Positions 68-58,335 of a stretch of DNA of 64,000 nt are shown here, piece by piece. The stretch's first letter is position 1. Every line of letters starts with the position of its first letter. The notes beneath the pieces were generated by a model. The model ran no database searches, was not told where the DNA came from, and saw only the letters and a list, made by a program, of their open reading frames with translations. Source of the DNA: Flavihumibacter profundi (lineage in GTDB: Bacteria > Bacteroidota > Bacteroidia > Chitinophagales > Chitinophagaceae); NCBI RefSeq assembly GCF_020076305.1, contig NZ_JAIQXE010000001.1, positions 1,364,001-1,428,000 of the forward strand, written 5' to 3'. A program made the position numbers and the translations under genes.

Positions 68-859
68 TCATACAGAAACTTTATTTAATTCGTTGACAAA
101 TTGCTGAAAAGCCAGTCCGGGATCAGGCGCTTTCATAAACAACTCACCAATCAAAAATCCCCTGAACCCATGGTCTTTAAAAATCCGGACATTTTCAACT
201 TTATCGATACCACTTTCAGCGACTTTAATGGTTTGTGGCGGTAATTGTGCAGCCATGGCCAGGCTCCTGTTTATATCGACTGTAAAAGTCTTTAAATTCC
301 GGTTATTGATACCAACTACCGGCGTAAAAGCATTCACATGACCCAATTCCTCTTCGCCATGCAATTCCAGCAAAACGCCCAATCCCAGCGCCCTGGCTGT
401 TTTTGCAAGCCGCTCCACTTCCAACGGAGATAAGCACGAAGCAATGAGCAGGATCACATCTGCGCCCATGGATCTTGATTCAACCAACTGGTATTCATCA
501 ATAATAAAATCCTTCCTTAGAATAGGGATCTGATTTACCCGTGCAGCTTCGAGGTCAGCAGTACTTCCACCGAAAAACAGTTCATCAGTCAACACCGAAA
601 TTGCCGATGCCCCGTTAGCTGCATAGGCTGTTGTAACGGCTACCACATCAGCGGTGGCATTGATGATCCCTTTCGAAGGGGAGCGTCTCTTGAACTCGGC
701 AATGATGCCTGTGCGGGAAACATCCAGCAGGAATTTTTCAAAAGAAATAGTTTCGCGCTTGCAGCCGGATGTTTTCTCGAGAACTGTGATGGGCCGGTTC
801 GCTTTCCTTTCCGCTACTTCGATTCTTTTTTGGGCTATAATAGTGTCTAAAATATTCAT
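68..859 (-). CDS. trpC: indole-3-glycerol phosphate synthase
   Basis: Converts 1-(2-carboxyphenylamino)-1-deoxyribulose 5-phosphate to indole-3-glycerol phosphate in cytosolic tryptophan synthesis. The 263-residue length is normal for a single-domain TrpC. The substrate-binding/catalytic motif AEFKRRSPSKG lies at about residues 54-64, the conserved LRKDF lysine at about 116, and a late AESGI phosphate-binding segment is present. It is not fused to TrpF. It starts 11 nt after the trpD stop codon and is the last gene of the trp operon visible here; trpF, trpB and trpA would lie beyond the left edge. Very confident. Confidence 0.97.
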   Translation of the reverse strand: MNILDTIIAQKRIEVAERKANRPITVLEKTSGCKRETISFEKFLLDVSRTGIIAEFKRRSPSKGIINATADVVAVTTAYAANGASAISVLTDELFFGGSTADLEAARVNQIPILRKDFIIDEYQLVESRSMGADVILLIASCLSPLEVERLAKTARALGLGVLLELHGEEELGHVNAFTPVVGINNRNLKTFTVDINRSLAMAAQLPPQTIKVAESGIDKVENVRIFKDHGFRGFLIGELFMKAPDPGLAFQQFVNELNKVSV

Positions 860-870
860 ATCAACTGCTA

Positions 871-1863
871 CTATTGTAATTGGATTAAAATATCTAAACT
901 GGCCTTGGCTTTGCCGCTCTCAAGACTTTCTACCGCTGCAGAATAAGCGCTTTCATAGCTTGTGTACCTGCCTGTACTTTGCAGGGCCATGGCTGCATTG
1001 GCAATTACCACAGCATTCTGGGCCCAGCTTCCGTTCCCGTCCAGGATCTTCCGGAACAGTTTTGCAGATTCCTCCACGGTATTACCGCCATAAATGTCTG
1101 ACGGGTTCACCATCCTTTTACCAAGTTGCTCGGGAGTGAACAATTGTTCACCGAAATTGGTGATCACTTTTGTATCACTGGTCAGGGAAATTTCATCATA
1201 CCCATCAAGGCTATGGATGATGGTAAACTGCCGGCCGGTTTCTTGCAGAAGGTAATTGTAAATGCGCGCCATCTCAAGGTTGTATACGCCAACCAGCTGG
1301 TAGGCCGGGTCTACTGGATTCACCATGGGACCAAGCATATTAAAAAAAGTCCGCATGCCCAGGTTCTTACGGATAGGACCAACAACTTTTAGTGCAGGAT
1401 GAAATAAAGGTGCATGTAAAAAGCAAATACCGGCCTTATCGATTTCTTTCCTCAGGGCATCATTATTATTCTTGAATTTATAACCCAGTTGCTCCATGAC
1501 GTTGGATGCGCCACTGATAGAGGAAGCACCGTAGTTGCCATGTTTGGCGACTTTTTGCCCCGCACCGGCAACGATAAAACAGGCCAGCGTAGAAATATTA
1601 AAGGTATTCTTGCCGTCGCCCCCGGTTCCAACTATGTCCAGTACTTTATCCCCATCCAGGTTTACCGGCACGCATAATTCGAGCAAAGCATCACGAAAGC
1701 CGTGCAATTCTTCAATCGTTACACTACGCATGAGGTACACCGTCATAAAAGCTGTAATCTCATGTTCATTGTACATGGCCTTTCCGATATTTGTCAAAGC
1801 CTCCCTGGCCATAGCCCTTGACAATGTCTTGTGCTCAAATAAAAACTGCAAAATTTTTTTCAT
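871..1863 (-). CDS. trpD: anthranilate phosphoribosyltransferase
   Basis: Transfers phosphoribose from PRPP to anthranilate. The PRPP-binding motif GTGGDGKNTFN is at residues 79-89, followed by the glycine-rich KHGNYGASS anthranilate-site segment; the 330-residue length is typical. It is a stand-alone protein, not fused to TrpG. About 60 nt separate it from trpG, and that gap holds a short repeat-like spacer, so trpD is less tightly packed than its neighbours but still in the trp operon. Confidence 0.97.
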   Translation of the reverse strand: MKKILQFLFEHKTLSRAMAREALTNIGKAMYNEHEITAFMTVYLMRSVTIEELHGFRDALLELCVPVNLDGDKVLDIVGTGGDGKNTFNISTLACFIVAGAGQKVAKHGNYGASSISGASNVMEQLGYKFKNNNDALRKEIDKAGICFLHAPLFHPALKVVGPIRKNLGMRTFFNMLGPMVNPVDPAYQLVGVYNLEMARIYNYLLQETGRQFTIIHSLDGYDEISLTSDTKVITNFGEQLFTPEQLGKRMVNPSDIYGGNTVEESAKLFRKILDGNGSWAQNAVVIANAAMALQSTGRYTSYESAYSAAVESLESGKAKASLDILIQLQ

Positions 1864-1925: not shown

Positions 1926-2507
1926 TTAAGCCCCCAGCCAATTCCGCATCATCTTCTCGCCATCAGGGGTGAGCACGCTTTCCGGGTGAAACTGGACACC
2001 CTGCACATCATAACGGATATGCCTGAGGGCCATAATTTGACCACCTGCATCCCTTGCAGTAATCTCCAGTTCTTCAGGAAAATTTTCTTCACTTATTACC
2101 CAGGAATGATACCGGCCAACTTCAATGGTGGCAGGCAGTCCTTTAAATATATCGTTATCCCTTATTGTGCGATCCTGTTCCACCATTATCGGTGTAGCCA
2201 CACCGTGATATACTTCTGCCAGGTTAATCAGCGTGCCGCCAAAAGCCTGTCCGATAGCCTGGTGGCCCAGACACACACCCAGTATAGATTTGCCGGGTGC
2301 ATAAGCTTTGATAAGGGGCAACAACAAACCAGCTTCTTCGGGTATACCCGGTCCAGGTGATAAAATGATTTTATCAAACCTTGCAACTTCTTCAAGGGGT
2401 AACTGGTCATTGCGAAAAACTTCAACCTGCTCGCCAATGATTTTTTTTACTAGGTGTACGAGATTATATGTAAATGAGTCGTAATTATCGAAAACAAGGA
2501 TCTTCAT
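1926..2507 (-). CDS. trpG: anthranilate synthase component II (glutamine amidotransferase)
   Basis: Class I glutamine amidotransferase subunit that supplies ammonia to TrpE. The catalytic triad is visible: Cys79 in GVCLGHQ, and His174 and Glu176 in VQFHPESV. The oxyanion-loop motif SPGPG is at residues 50-54. Length (193) is standard. Because a dedicated trpE sits 18 nt upstream, trpG is the better name, although such subunits can also serve aminodeoxychorismate synthase (pabA). Confidence 0.95.
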   Translation of the reverse strand: MKILVFDNYDSFTYNLVHLVKKIIGEQVEVFRNDQLPLEEVARFDKIILSPGPGIPEEAGLLLPLIKAYAPGKSILGVCLGHQAIGQAFGGTLINLAEVYHGVATPIMVEQDRTIRDNDIFKGLPATIEVGRYHSWVISEENFPEELEITARDAGGQIMALRHIRYDVQGVQFHPESVLTPDGEKMMRNWLGA

Positions 2508-2525: not shown

Positions 2526-3989
2526 TCAGATTACTTTGGCCAGTTCCAGCGCTTTTTTAAGGGCCCTCAGTTTATTATTTACTTCGGCCAGTTCACTTGC
2601 CGGATTACTTGCAGCTACCACACCGGCACCTGCCTGGTAGGTTAGTGTATTCTGCCTGCTCAGGAATGTCCTTATCATGATGGCATGGTTGCAGGTTCCG
2701 TCAAATCCGATGAACCCGATAGCCCCGCCATAATAGCTACGTGCCGTTGGTTCAAACTTGTCGATCAATTGCATAGCCCGAATTTTTGGTGCACCGCTAA
2801 GAGTTCCGGCAGGAAATGTTTTAGCCATCAATAAAAACGGGTTGGTGCCAGGTGTTACTTTTCCGGTAACCTCACTAACCAAGTGAATCACATGCGAAAA
2901 ATATTGTACCTGGCGGTAATGGGTCACTTCCACTTCATTGCACAAACGGCTTAGGTCGTTCCTGGCAAGGTCAACCAGCATCACATGCTCAGCATTTTCC
3001 TTAGCATCCAGGAGCAACCTTTGTGTTTCCTGCTGGTCAATCGTTTCATCTCCGCTCCGTTTATAAGTGCCTGCTATAGGATGCACAACGGCCTTACCAT
3101 TGTTTATTATAAGTTGCGCCTCCGGTGATGACCCCATCAGTTTATAATCGCCATAGTCGAAAAAGAACAGGTAAGGTGAAGGATTGATAGTACGCAAAGC
3201 CCGGTACACATTAAATTCATCACCATGAAAACCCTGACGGAACCGACGGCTGAGTACGATCTGGAAAACATCACCCCGCAGGCAGCTGGCGATACCTTTG
3301 CGCACCATGTCCATATAGGTTTCATCGGGCATATTAGTCTCTTCTTCCCCAACCAGCCGGAAAGGGAAAACAGGTACATCCCTGTTTCGAATCAGTGATT
3401 CTACCACGGGAAGTTCCGATTCAACACCCGAAATTTTGTTTTCGCAAAGATAGAGTTCGTCTTTAAAATGATTGATTGCAATCACATATTGGTATAAGCG
3501 ATATCGCATCAGGGGAATTGCACTGTCATTTCCAGTTCTCGCACTAGGGCTGAGTGGTATTACCAATGATTTCTCCGGAGCGAATTTAATGCTGTCGAAA
3601 AACTGAACGGCATCATATGTTGTGTAGCCATACAATCCCTGTGCAAACCGGGCGGCTTTATGGGCAGGGGGAATAAGCTCGAAGCGCTGCATAAATCCCC
3701 ATAACTGCGCCGGAACTTCAGCGAGGTCATTTATGGCGGCCTTTTCCGGGGCCTGGGCTGGAAATTTATACTCGATACTGTTGGTTGTGCTAATCTCCAT
3801 ACCGGCAATTGCATTAATGCCGATAAAAGAATAACTGTTATCTGCAGCATGATGATCGGTACTTTCGAGTAGTATTGTATCGCGGAATCGGTCGCGCAGG
3901 CGCAGGTAAATACCCACAGGTGTATGCACATCCGCCAACATTTGTTTTACTTCAGTTTCAATCCTGATCTTTTTCATTTTTTGTTCCAT
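2526..3989 (-). CDS. trpE: anthranilate synthase component I
   Basis: Chorismate-utilising subunit making anthranilate with TrpG. The C-terminal chorismate-binding domain shows HPIAGTYKRSGDE, a VMLVDLARNDLSR segment and AGTLSGAPKIRAMQLID; the N-terminal LLESTDHHAADNSYSFIG region corresponds to the feedback-inhibition site that in TrpE proteins carries an LLES motif. First gene of the operon. Starts at 3989 (MEQKMKK) or 3977 are both possible; there is no strong Shine-Dalgarno. It begins 22 nt beyond the U-tract of the attenuator terminator, so its expression should depend on read-through there. Confidence 0.97.
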   Translation of the reverse strand: MEQKMKKIRIETEVKQMLADVHTPVGIYLRLRDRFRDTILLESTDHHAADNSYSFIGINAIAGMEISTTNSIEYKFPAQAPEKAAINDLAEVPAQLWGFMQRFELIPPAHKAARFAQGLYGYTTYDAVQFFDSIKFAPEKSLVIPLSPSARTGNDSAIPLMRYRLYQYVIAINHFKDELYLCENKISGVESELPVVESLIRNRDVPVFPFRLVGEEETNMPDETYMDMVRKGIASCLRGDVFQIVLSRRFRQGFHGDEFNVYRALRTINPSPYLFFFDYGDYKLMGSSPEAQLIINNGKAVVHPIAGTYKRSGDETIDQQETQRLLLDAKENAEHVMLVDLARNDLSRLCNEVEVTHYRQVQYFSHVIHLVSEVTGKVTPGTNPFLLMAKTFPAGTLSGAPKIRAMQLIDKFEPTARSYYGGAIGFIGFDGTCNHAIMIRTFLSRQNTLTYQAGAGVVAASNPASELAEVNNKLRALKKALELAKVI

Positions 3990-4010: not shown

Positions 4011-4037
4011 AAAAAAGCCCCGATTGTCAATCGGGGC
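4011..4037 (-). terminator. trp attenuator terminator hairpin
   Basis: On the minus strand a perfect 9-bp stem (GCCCCGATT/AATCGGGGC, loop GAC) at 4017-4037 is followed directly by six U at 4011-4016, a textbook intrinsic terminator. It lies between the trp leader peptide stop (4072) and trpE. Its 5' arm can alternatively pair with the end of the leader ORF: bases 4084-4075 against 4032-4041 form nine of ten pairs (one U-G, one G x G mismatch), making an antiterminator. Confidence 0.93.
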
Positions 4038-4071
4038 CCTGAATTATGTGTAAATAAACACAGTAATAGCA

Positions 4072-4134
4072 TTACAGCACCCCGGAAGAGTTTGTATGCC
4101 ACCACCACTGCATATTTTGATTGTTTTTGTTCAT
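4072..4134 (-). CDS. trpL: trp operon leader peptide
   Basis: A 20-codon ORF, MNKNNQNMQWWWHTNSSGVL, with three consecutive TGG codons (4107-4099). Such tryptophan runs just upstream of a terminator/antiterminator pair and trpE are the hallmark of ribosome-mediated attenuation. A ribosome stalled on the Trp codons would leave 4085-4075 free to form the antiterminator; one reaching the TAA stop at 4074-4072 would cover it and allow termination. The ATG sits only 7 nt after the last base of a -7-like box, so the leader mRNA may be almost leaderless. Too short to be found by ordinary gene callers. Confidence 0.9.
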   Translation of the reverse strand: MNKNNQNMQWWWHTNSSGVL

Positions 4135-4141
4135 GAGGGCA

Positions 4142-4174
4142 CAAAGATGCAGCCCCAAATTGGAATGAACAAAA
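4142..4174 (-). promoter_or_regulatory. putative Bacteroidota-type promoter of the trp operon
   Basis: Minus strand: TTTTG at 4174-4170, 20 nt spacer, then CATCTTTG at 4149-4142, a 7/8 match to the TAnnTTTG -7 consensus. Transcription would start around 4136-4138, only a few bases before the leader ATG at 4134. Seen by eye; no start-site data. Confidence 0.6.
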
Positions 4175-4194: not shown

Positions 4195-4223
4195 TCACCC
4201 GCCGGGTAATACCCGGCGGGTGA
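4195..4223. repeat. CCCGCCGGG palindromic repeat, copy 1
   Basis: Perfect inverted repeat with 13-nt arms TCACCCGCCGGGT and ACCCGGCGGGTGA around an AAT spacer. It is much more GC-rich than its surroundings. It sits between the trp promoter and the divergent SDR-like gene. Three related elements occur at about 11.2, 26.9 and 58.1 kb in this window. Confidence 0.85.
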
Positions 4224-11014: not shown

Positions 11015-11042
11015 AAAAAAAAAAGCTTACCAGTGGTAAGCC
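11015..11042 (-). terminator. his attenuator terminator hairpin
   Basis: Minus strand: 7-bp stem GCTTACC/GGTAAGC with loop ACT (11041-11025), followed by ten U at 11024-11015. The 5' arm can instead pair with GGTAGGC at 11083-11077, which overlaps the leader-peptide stop codon, giving seven pairs including one G-U: the antiterminator. An additional ATGTTTT...AAAACAT hairpin could form between the two. Confidence 0.92.
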
Positions 11043-11078
11043 TTCAAATGTTTTATGTTATACGCAAAACATCATCGC

Positions 11079-11129
11079 CTACCTGGATGGCAAGAAATGA
11101 TGGTAATGATTTTGCGCGATTTGTTTCAT
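11079..11129 (-). CDS. hisL: his operon leader peptide
   Basis: Sixteen codons, MKQIAQNHYHHFLPSR, with a His-Tyr-His-His cluster (codons at 11108-11097). Located between a well-matched promoter and the terminator/antiterminator pair ahead of hisG, as expected for ribosome-mediated attenuation of histidine synthesis. The TAG stop (11081-11079) lies inside the antiterminator half, so a ribosome terminating there would favour termination, while one stalled at the His codons would favour read-through. Its ATG is 8 nt after the last base of the -7 box. Confidence 0.88.
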   Translation of the reverse strand: MKQIAQNHYHHFLPSR

Positions 11130-11137
11130 AATGGTTG

Positions 11138-11170
11138 CAAAAATATAGCGAATGGCATCAAACCACCAAA
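11138..11170 (-). promoter_or_regulatory. putative promoter of the his operon
   Basis: Minus strand: TTTG at 11170-11167, 21 nt spacer, and TATTTTTG at 11145-11138, an exact match to the Bacteroidota TAnnTTTG -7 consensus. The implied start (about 11132-11135) leaves only a few untranslated bases before the leader-peptide ATG at 11129. Confidence 0.72.
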
Positions 11171-11177
11171 TTTTTTC

Positions 11178-11221
11178 TTTACCGCCGGGTAGTTCCCGGC
11201 GGGAACTACCCGGCGGGTAAA
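11178..11221. repeat. CCCGCCGGG palindromic repeat, copy 2
   Basis: Three-part element: TTTACCGCCGGGTAGTT, a central CCCGGCGGG, then AACTACCCGGCGGGTAAA. The outer arms are complementary except for one missing C. It separates the divergent promoters of the his operon and tsaC, just as copy 1 separates the trp operon from its divergent neighbour. Confidence 0.85.
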
Positions 11222-13396: not shown

Positions 13397-13481
13397 GTAT
13401 GCGTTTTTGTTGAACGGGAACGAAGATAGGAAAGAACAAGGAAAATGAAACAGGCGCAATACCTCAAAAGAAGAGAAAAAA

Positions 13482-13582
13482 ATGGCAGGCTGATTACATC
13501 GCGCCGCTACAACCGCTTACCCTTGCTGTCTTCCAACCCTGGGGGAGTTCAGCAGGAGCTGGCCGTGTAAGACCTGCCGCCG
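13482..13582 (-). ncRNA. ffs: signal recognition particle RNA (small bacterial type)
   Basis: The minus strand carries the SRP domain IV signature: CCCAGGGTTGGAAGACAGC followed by AAGGGTAAG, with the GGAA tetraloop at 13534-13531 and the asymmetric/symmetric internal loops bound by Ffh. Ends pair as GGCAGG (13578-13573) with CCTGCC (13489-13484), and a U-run (13482-13476) follows, so the RNA is about 95-100 nt. Exact termini are estimates. Confidence 0.92.
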
Positions 13583-13671
13583 CAAAGATAAGGGCAGGTG
13601 AGTTAAAGAACAAATCAAAATCAATTTAAAAAGATTATAAACTTTAAACTGGTAAATTTCCAACTGCGGAG

Positions 13672-26938: not shown

Positions 26939-26964
26939 ACCCCGGCGTGTATTACCCGCCGGGA
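26939..26964. repeat. CCCGCCGGG palindromic repeat, copy 3
   Basis: CCCGGCGTGT, spacer ATT, ACCCGCCGGG: arms complementary at 9 of 10 positions. It overlaps the 3' end of miaA, providing its final Pro-Gly-Gly codons and TAA stop (26952-26954). Confidence 0.8.
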
Positions 26965-57318: not shown

Positions 57319-58335
57319 ATGCGAAGCGAATTGATTCATAAAATTTTCAGCGTTGGCAAATACCTTCCCGATTCCCTTGTATTGGAGGTCTTCAGGTATC
57401 AATATGATCAAAATCCACTTTACCGGCAGTTTTGCTCAGCCATCCACAGGCCGCCGGAGAAGGTTATAAATATTACCGATATACCTTTTCTGCCTATCCG
57501 TTTCTTTAAAACACATGCCGTTAAAACCGGTGATTTTGAACCAGAAACGTTTTTCGAAAGCAGTGGAACTACCGGTACAATTAATAGCAGGCACCTTGTC
57601 CGGTCACTCGATATTTACAGGGAAAGTTTTACCCGGGGATTCGAGATATTTTACGGAATGCCTCAGGATTTGTGCATTATTGGTCTCTTACCAGCATACC
57701 TGGAAAGGCAACATTCATCGCTGGTGTTTATGGTAGATGAACTGATCCGGCTATCGGGGCATCCGCAAAGCGGATTTTACCTTTATGACCACGATAAACT
57801 CAGCGAAACTTTGCTTAGCCTCGAAAAAAACGGCCAGCGGGCAATTTTGATTGGGGTAACTTTTGCCTTACTTGATTTTGCAGATAAGTTCCCGATTAAT
57901 TTGCACCATACTATTATAATGGAAACAGGTGGGATGAAGGGGCGTCGGAAGGAATTGACAAGGCCCGAATTGCACCAGAAACTATCCAATTCTTTTGGTG
58001 AGGCACAAATTCACTCAGAATACGGCATGACCGAACTCCTCTCCCAAGCTTACTCGGCCGATAACGGCATCTTTTATTCACCACCCTGGCTAAAAATCCT
58101 TTTCCGCGAAGAAGATGATCCCCTTGTGGTCGTATCACCCGGCGGGCATTACCCGCCGGGTGATACCCGCCGGGTGAAAAATGGAGCGATCAATGTAATT
58201 GACCTGGCCAATATCGATTCCTGTTGTTTTATTGCCACCGATGATATGGGCAGAATGCATCCGGATGGGGGATTTGAAGTTTTAGGAAGAATTGACAATT
58301 CTGATATCCGGGGTTGCAGCTTAATGACCATTTAA
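57319..58335 (+). CDS. LuxE/PaaK-like acyl-protein synthetase (adenylating)
   Basis: 338 residues. ATP/substrate motif ESSGTTGTINSRH resembles the ANL P-loop; EYGMTELLSQAY and the C-terminal LGRIDNSDIRGCSL fit the LuxE/acyl-protein synthetase family, which activates acyl groups. The partner is unknown. Codons for about residues 273-286 (SPGGHYPPGDTRRV) come from palindromic repeat copy 4, inserted in frame in the loop before NGAINVIDLANI. Confidence 0.8.
   Translation: MRSELIHKIFSVGKYLPDSLVLEVFRYQYDQNPLYRQFCSAIHRPPEKVINITDIPFLPIRFFKTHAVKTGDFEPETFFESSGTTGTINSRHLVRSLDIYRESFTRGFEIFYGMPQDLCIIGLLPAYLERQHSSLVFMVDELIRLSGHPQSGFYLYDHDKLSETLLSLEKNGQRAILIGVTFALLDFADKFPINLHHTIIMETGGMKGRRKELTRPELHQKLSNSFGEAQIHSEYGMTELLSQAYSADNGIFYSPPWLKILFREEDDPLVVVSPGGHYPPGDTRRVKNGAINVIDLANIDSCCFIATDDMGRMHPDGGFEVLGRIDNSDIRGCSLMTI
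58135..58177. repeat. CCCGCCGGG palindromic repeat, copy 4 (inside CDS)
   Basis: TCACCCGGCGGGC, ATT, ACCCGCCGGGTGA, then a third arm TACCCGCCGGGTGA. Arms one and two are complementary at 12 of 13 positions. The element keeps the reading frame of the LuxE-like gene and encodes SPGGHYPPGDTRRV. Confidence 0.9.

Follow-up and report, generated by a model that had tools for sequence, protein, structure and literature searches.

The DNA upstream of trpE in the window (the whole 64,000-nt stretch of the Flavihumibacter profundi genome analyzed here) very probably encodes an attenuator that controls transcription of the trp operon through the translating ribosome and comprises the four classic segments. 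We infer that this switch very likely turns on the tryptophan-synthesis genes when tryptophan is low. Its design is close to textbook attenuation and is carried by many related bacteria. Two features are variations within ribosome-mediated trp attenuators: strand 2 lies inside the end of the leader open reading frame (ORF), and the transcript is predicted to be nearly leaderless. The distinguished elements and the genes that follow them are:

4170..4174, minus strand: -33-like element TTTTG, fitting the TTG/TAnnTTTG promoter type
4142..4149, minus strand: -7 box CATCTTTG (TAnnTTTG type), its 3′ end 7 nt from the leader ATG
4072..4134, minus strand: leader ORF of 20 codons, MNKNNQNMQWWWHTNSSGVL followed by the stop codon (assigned from the ORF and its conservation)
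4099..4107, minus strand: sensor, three tandem Trp codons (TGG TGG TGG)
4093..4106, minus strand: segment 1, the Trp codons and following codons (partner 4076-4062)
4071..4084, minus strand: segment 2, the antiterminator 5′ strand CGGGGTGCTGTAAT (leader ORF end and stop codon)
4062..4076, minus strand: arm closing the 1:2 hairpin with the Trp codons
4032..4044, minus strand: segment 3, the antiterminator 3′ strand, including the left arm of the terminator
4011..4040, minus strand: intrinsic terminator (3:4) of 12 pairs with a U tract
2526..3989, minus strand: trpE (best model TIGR00564, 383.4 bits, below the curated cut-off of 517.7)
1926..2507, minus strand: trpG (TIGR00566, 166.7 bits, above cut-off)
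871..1863, minus strand: trpD (TIGR01245, 303.2 bits, above cut-off)
68..859, minus strand: trpC (NF001377, 276.1 bits, above cut-off)

The gene order downstream of the attenuator is trpE-G-D-C. Since the trpE score lies below the TIGR00564 curated cut-off, this name rests on the model match together with the gene context.

An initial annotation had placed a promoter, a 20-codon leader ORF with three consecutive TGG codons, an antiterminator and a 9-bp U-tailed terminator in front of trpE, and all of these are present. The promoter, on the minus strand, fits the TAnnTTTG type rather than sigma-70: TTTTG (4174-4170) and CATCTTTG (4149-4142) are separated by 20 nt, and a scan found no sigma-70-like promoter. 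The ORF occupies 4134-4072, with the TGG run at 4107-4099. The core of the terminator has the nine pairs claimed (4037-4029/4025-4017) and is extended by two G-U pairs and one A-U pair, giving 12 pairs across 4040-4014 with a loop of 3, followed by T's; its end lies 21 nt before trpE. Read from the sequence, 4084-4075 forms nine of ten pairs with 4041-4032 (one of them G-U, with one G-G mismatch), and the 5′ strand of this antiterminator is indeed the very end of the leader ORF. In the folded nascent RNA the antiterminator consists of 4084-4079/4037-4032, 4077-4075/4041-4039 and 4073-4071/4044-4042. The lowest-energy fold of the full leader contains the Trp-codon (1:2) hairpin and the terminator side by side, and the fold z-score of the leader region is -3.3. 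One exact copy of the leader core is present in the genome, along with a second match with two mismatches. No Rfam family, T-box included, scored over its gathering threshold at 4011-4174, and no match to the Trp repressor TrpR (PF01371) was detected in the genome (control matches were obtained in 2 of 14 named genomes).

Strong trpE-like matches were collected from 196 relatives and from 198 genomes of the class, and the DNA upstream of them was compared. The relatives' set comprises 107 loci (L001-L107, a few of them partial), weaker, paralogue-like matches being left out; the class set includes 55 of 60 new places (G200, G230, G250, G318 and G384 were left out). Family, order and class are used here as the kinship labels of the genome search. 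To count as a Trp leader, an ORF could span no more than 40 codons and had to carry two Trp codons, either adjacent or one codon apart. The contig-edge loci L165 and L166 are outside the 162 loci counted below, but inside the 164 from which loci without a leader were listed and inside the 139 that were folded with and without a ribosome and searched for the promoter box. Locus L068, whose leader lies about 410 nt upstream and so, with the leader length included, beyond the 450-nt frame, was scored as a miss.

The proposed comparison of trpE leaders among relatives found the Trp codons kept: a Trp leader is present at 86/89 loci of the same family, 17/18 of other families of the order and 42/55 of other orders. 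Leader and terminator occur together at 82/89, 16/18 and 39/55 of these loci, respectively (137 of 162 in total), and a WWW run at 79/89, 12/18 and 23/55. Among 492 shuffled upstream regions there were 14 leaders, and among 164 reverse complements four, with no WWW and no combination of leader and terminator in either control. A leader within 450 nt was missing at 17 of the 164 loci. Outside the class but within the phylum, a Trp leader with a terminator was seen at three (L222, L225 and L227) of eight loci, an uncontrolled count. The co-occurrence of leader and terminator before trpE exceeds chance, and this conservation, ahead of the fold z-score, is the main sign that the element did not arise by chance. 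A subgroup of the family (L078, L081, L082 and also L069) has a different terminator, GGCTCGCTG..CAGCGGGCC (GGGCCCGCTG in L069), in which the stricter rule found no T-rich tail. Following the Trp codons (window 4098-4090), CATACAAAC represents nearly constant His-Thr-Asn codons in the trp leaders of the family.

The antiterminator (2:3) was tested within the family at 75 of the 82 leader-bearing loci, seven without a terminator by the stricter rule being left out. A GGGG or GAGG run is found at the leader end in 71 of the 75 (four have no G-run), and in 65 of these 71 it lies 4 or 5 nt before the stop codon. The run occurs in all three codon phases (26, 39 and 6 loci), an argument for conservation at the level of the RNA and not of the peptide. 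The left arm of the terminator contains CCCC in 57, CCTC in 13 and CTTC in one of the 71 loci; a GAGG leader is matched to CCTC at two of the 13 CCTC loci, and the other 11, as well as the CTTC locus, retain a GGGG leader, i.e. G-U pairs. As the G-run and the arm motifs were search terms, this core pairing is partly given by construction. Pairing of the leader end with the left side of the terminator beats at least 95% of its own shuffles at 61/75 loci. Where the spacer is 4 nt (n = 39), 72% of flanking cells are paired, compared with 19-45% after sliding; in the 5-nt spacer subgroup of the window (n = 26) the values are 47% and 22-50%, i.e. there is no excess (0.47 for the own position and 0.50 when slid by one base). 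Exchanging partners among family members fails to separate own from foreign partners (median rank 0.41), the antiterminator core being nearly invariant there.

A second set of 59 loci combined L001 and L104-L106 with the 55 loci outside the family that have both leader and terminator. Here the mean 2:3 energy is -13.85 kcal/mol, which none of 5000 permutations reached (-10.56 kcal/mol with permuted partners, sd 0.36); when each of the 24 families is represented by a single locus, z ranges from -3.4 to -5.5 over 20 draws. Taken singly the loci are weak, the own partner being among the best 5% for 19/59 and ranking at 0.6 or worse for L085, L100 and L105. As an example, GTGAACAGC or a near variant at the leader end faces GCTGTTC(AC) across the arm and loop of the terminator (L156, L158 and L162). 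The antiterminator pairing is maintained as the sequence changes, over the set though not at every locus. The stop codon is overlapped by strand 2 in 32 of the 59 loci; in 21 strand 2 lies wholly upstream of it and in six wholly downstream. An extension of the antiterminator across the stop codon to the CATATT flank is not supported (2479/3000 permutations reach it), though the window fold has three such pairs. RNAalifold, run on a family alignment of 67 of 75 rows (eight diverged rows were dropped, and the G-run stands in differing phases), returned the terminator and a 1:2-like hairpin; it gave only three antiterminator pairs, and these only with the upstream leader removed.

The claim that a two-structure switch would suffice was rejected: across the class, the Trp codons and the next codons pair with strand 2. 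Over the 59 loci the upstream leader pairs with strand 2 at -11.45, versus -8.75 permuted (sd 0.29; 0/3000), the pairing covers the Trp codons in 55/59 loci, and with one locus per family z is -4.8 to -7.1. Among loci of the window's family, the segment holding the Trp codons pairs with the stretch that begins at the stop codon at -13.43, versus -12.5 permuted (0/3000) and -7.1 with the partner stretch shuffled, 59 of 77 loci lying beyond 95% of shuffles. Pairing of the linker with strand 2 is weaker than permuted (2997/3000 permutations reach it); linker with terminator arm and leader with terminator arm are reached by 2667/3000 and 324/3000 permutations, respectively. Leader with linker is reached by 1/3000 (z -3.8), so some pairing extends into the linker too. 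Support for a 1:2 hairpin with the Trp codons in one arm identifies the element as an ordinary four-segment, ribosome-mediated attenuator; its parts, their conservation and the 1:2, 2:3 and 3:4 pairing amid sequence change are all observed. Two other hairpins were rejected. Four pairs between CTCT (Asn-Ser codons) and the G-run, considered as segment 1, are possible in 69/71 family loci, but also in 2701/3550 shuffles, whose mean fold is the stronger one (-2.77, against -2.25 for the loci). A linker hairpin (TGTGT/ACACA in the window) is weak, with 28/77 loci among the best 10% of shuffles.

Folding was modeled on RNA extending up to the terminator loop, with or without a ribosome masked in; masks extended to 12 nt counted from the first base of the A-site codon, the A site of the stalled ribosome being the last Trp codon but one (our choice). 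For the window, the expected number of antiterminator pairs is 3.0 with no ribosome, 8.8 with a ribosome on the Trp codons and 0.0 with a ribosome at the stop codon. The corresponding means are 3.7, 9.1 and 1.55 for 78 family loci, and 3.28, 11.08 and 1.85 for 61 others, which include four same-family loci (L084 and L104-L106). At least five antiterminator pairs are expected with a stalled ribosome in 78/78 family loci and 61/61 others, without a ribosome in 25/78 and 14/61, and with a ribosome at the stop codon in 6/78 and 4/61. The single lowest-energy fold of the truncated window RNA without a ribosome is the antiterminator form. When the whole terminator is present, it wins in every state at equilibrium (means 0.93, 0.88 and 0.93 for the family and 0.96, 0.92 and 0.96 for the others), so the switch must depend on co-transcriptional timing.

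As the transcript start would adjoin the leader AUG, a ribosome could engage the RNA immediately on its emergence. Under a shortage of charged tRNA-Trp it would stall on the WWW codons and cover segment 1, leaving segment 2 (CGGGGTGCTG, the ORF end) free to pair with segment 3, the left arm of the terminator; with 2:3 formed, RNA polymerase would continue into trpE. When tryptophan is plentiful, a ribosome at the stop codon would sit on segment 2 and the 3:4 terminator would form. With no ribosome loaded, 1:2 would compete with 2:3, favouring the terminator.

The reduced switch of the initial annotation, in which only antiterminator and terminator matter and the antiterminator forms without a ribosome, agrees with the lowest-energy fold of the ribosome-free truncated RNA, and a stopped ribosome alone would hide an antiterminator strand that lies inside the ORF. 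Against it stand the 1:2 pairing, which persists amid sequence change (0/3000) with the Trp codons in one arm (55/59), and the window ensemble, in which 3.0 antiterminator pairs with segment 1 free become 8.8 when it is covered; we consider this version very improbable. That the terminator is constitutive and stands outside any switch, behind a WWW ORF that arose by chance, is exceedingly improbable given the absence of leader plus terminator (0/492 and 0/164) and of WWW from both controls, and the support for 2:3 (0/5000) and 1:2 (0/3000) pairing.

It is also very improbable that the leader acts through its nascent or released peptide (by arrest or in trans) and not through codon-dependent stalling. 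In favour of a peptide role, most family loci keep HTN after WWW (H in 67, T in 61 and N in 60 of 78), no pairing identified accounts for the constancy of ACAAAC, and the peTrpL peptide of Sinorhizobium meliloti acts in trans (available text of PMC7298713). Departures from the consensus at the three HTN codons are, however, 8 synonymous and 11 non-synonymous, 6 and 17, and 2 and 18, respectively; being more often non-synonymous, they do not favour constraint at the peptide level, and outside the family the residues following WWW vary widely. The four-segment attenuator read by a ribosome is the preferred explanation.

The promoter box was searched as [TC]AnnTTTG within 45 nt of the leader AUG at 139 loci. 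It was found at 108 loci, the other 31 having no box within this distance, and at 86/139 its end lies 4-8 nt from the AUG, most often 7 nt (45 loci). The box occurred anywhere in 171 of 2780 shuffled regions. Of the 108 box-bearing loci, 90 also have a TTG 17-24 nt upstream of the -7 box. According to the available text of PMC9723704, the Flavobacterium TAnnTTTG promoter box is located at -12 to -5, and with the box 4-8 nt from the AUG this predicts a 5′ UTR of 0-4 nt; the leader transcript of the window is predicted to start about 3 nt before the ATG. Only 5.5% of the F. psychrophilum mRNAs with a mapped start are leaderless (same text). In the window, a box lies within 60 nt of 5/29 candidate first genes, at 4-8 nt from two of them, so closeness of the box is not unique to attenuators. 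The S. meliloti trpL transcript begins at the ATG (PMC7298713, available text).

A kindred leader was distinguished within the window:

11021..11145, minus strand: His leader MKQIAQNHYHHFLPSR followed by the stop codon (ORF 11129-11079), with a -7 box and a terminator, before hisG

At 29/30 loci hisG follows a His leader and its terminator, and reverse complements yielded none. The sequence at the leader end is GGTAAGC at 14 and GGTAGGC at seven of the 29, the window having GGTAGGC; paired by eye, the stop codon lies inside a word complementary to the terminator arm GCTTACC. In the same genome, a pheA-family gene (L230) is preceded by the Phe/Tyr-rich leader MIQPNSFGRFYFYFYFFTGRRPAMLCVGSTK and then by a terminator-like hairpin, an observation from this one genome. 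No leader passed the filter in the stretches examined for two ilvD-family genes, which may not be the first genes of operons. Tentatively, and just short of favouring the idea, we suggest that Bacteroidota may share one attenuator architecture for Trp, His and Phe operons, unlike the enterobacterial one: the AUG at a near-leaderless 5′ end and a decoy of the terminator right arm in the last leader codons and often in the stop codon itself, so that the last step of the ribosome would decide termination.

The palindromic repeat ACCCGCCGGGTANTNCCCGNCGGG occurs in the window at 4196-4222, 11195-11219, 26941-26963 and 58138-58174, two copies adjoining the trp and his promoters. With up to three mismatches it has 66 forward and 64 reverse matches genome-wide (most sites match on both strands) and none for the reversed control, and it resembles repeat families of the REP type. 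A Bacteroidales-type small SRP RNA (RF04183, 97.6 bits) lies at 13479-13586 on the minus strand.

In F. psychrophilum, leader-peptide attenuation upstream of amino-acid operons has been inferred, and structured 5′ regions precede hisG and pheA (PMC9723704, available text). This is the same kind of regulation, inferred in the same phylum, though this text gives neither a trpE example nor a structure, and makes no mention of trpE or tryptophan. Leader-like ORFs of B. thetaiotaomicron are in print (PMC7366714, available text). The literature matches listed, with most subscription journals outside their scope, include no description of a Bacteroidota trp attenuator, nor do the available parts of PMC2965389, PMC8632094 and PMC8305728; a comparative study of attenuation published by Lopatovskaya et al. 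in 2010 (cited in the available part of PMC4833913) may contain one. The remark in the initial annotation that such an element is less familiar in Bacteroidota is therefore fair only in degree, as attenuators of this kind are found through the class and leader-peptide attenuation of amino-acid operons had already been inferred in F. psychrophilum.

With the present analysis, the most familiar example of attenuation reaches a phylum for which the literature searched mentions such control only in passing, and the competing pairings gain comparative support. It also provides a candidate tryptophan sensor for a genome without a TrpR match. The near-leaderless start, if true, would offer a test of transcription-translation coupling in bacteria that do not rely on Shine-Dalgarno initiation.

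In S. meliloti, trpE and trpG are fused. The leader transcript of its trpLE(G) starts from the trpL ATG, which resembles the near-AUG start predicted here, and attenuation is the control of this trp operon during growth, transcription repression not being reported in the available text; S. meliloti belongs to another phylum, and there the sRNA and the peptide act in trans (PMC7298713). The actinobacterial trp attenuators (Corynebacterium, Streptomyces) likewise have double or triple UGG codons and one complementary triple serving antiterminator and terminator, with a gGCC-rGCy-GGCC core in the available text of PMC1262725, against CGGGG-CCCCG-CGGGG in the window and other sequences elsewhere in the class.

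The attenuator shares with Escherichia coli trpL-trpE the tandem Trp codons, the 1:2, 2:3 and 3:4 pairings and the terminator before trpE. In E. coli, strand 2 lies downstream of the leader stop codon, the leader has two Trp codons and it is preceded by a 5′ UTR with a Shine-Dalgarno sequence. In the window, by contrast, strand 2 falls within the final codons of the leader, reaching the stop codon; three Trp codons are present, and the AUG is located where the transcript is predicted to start.
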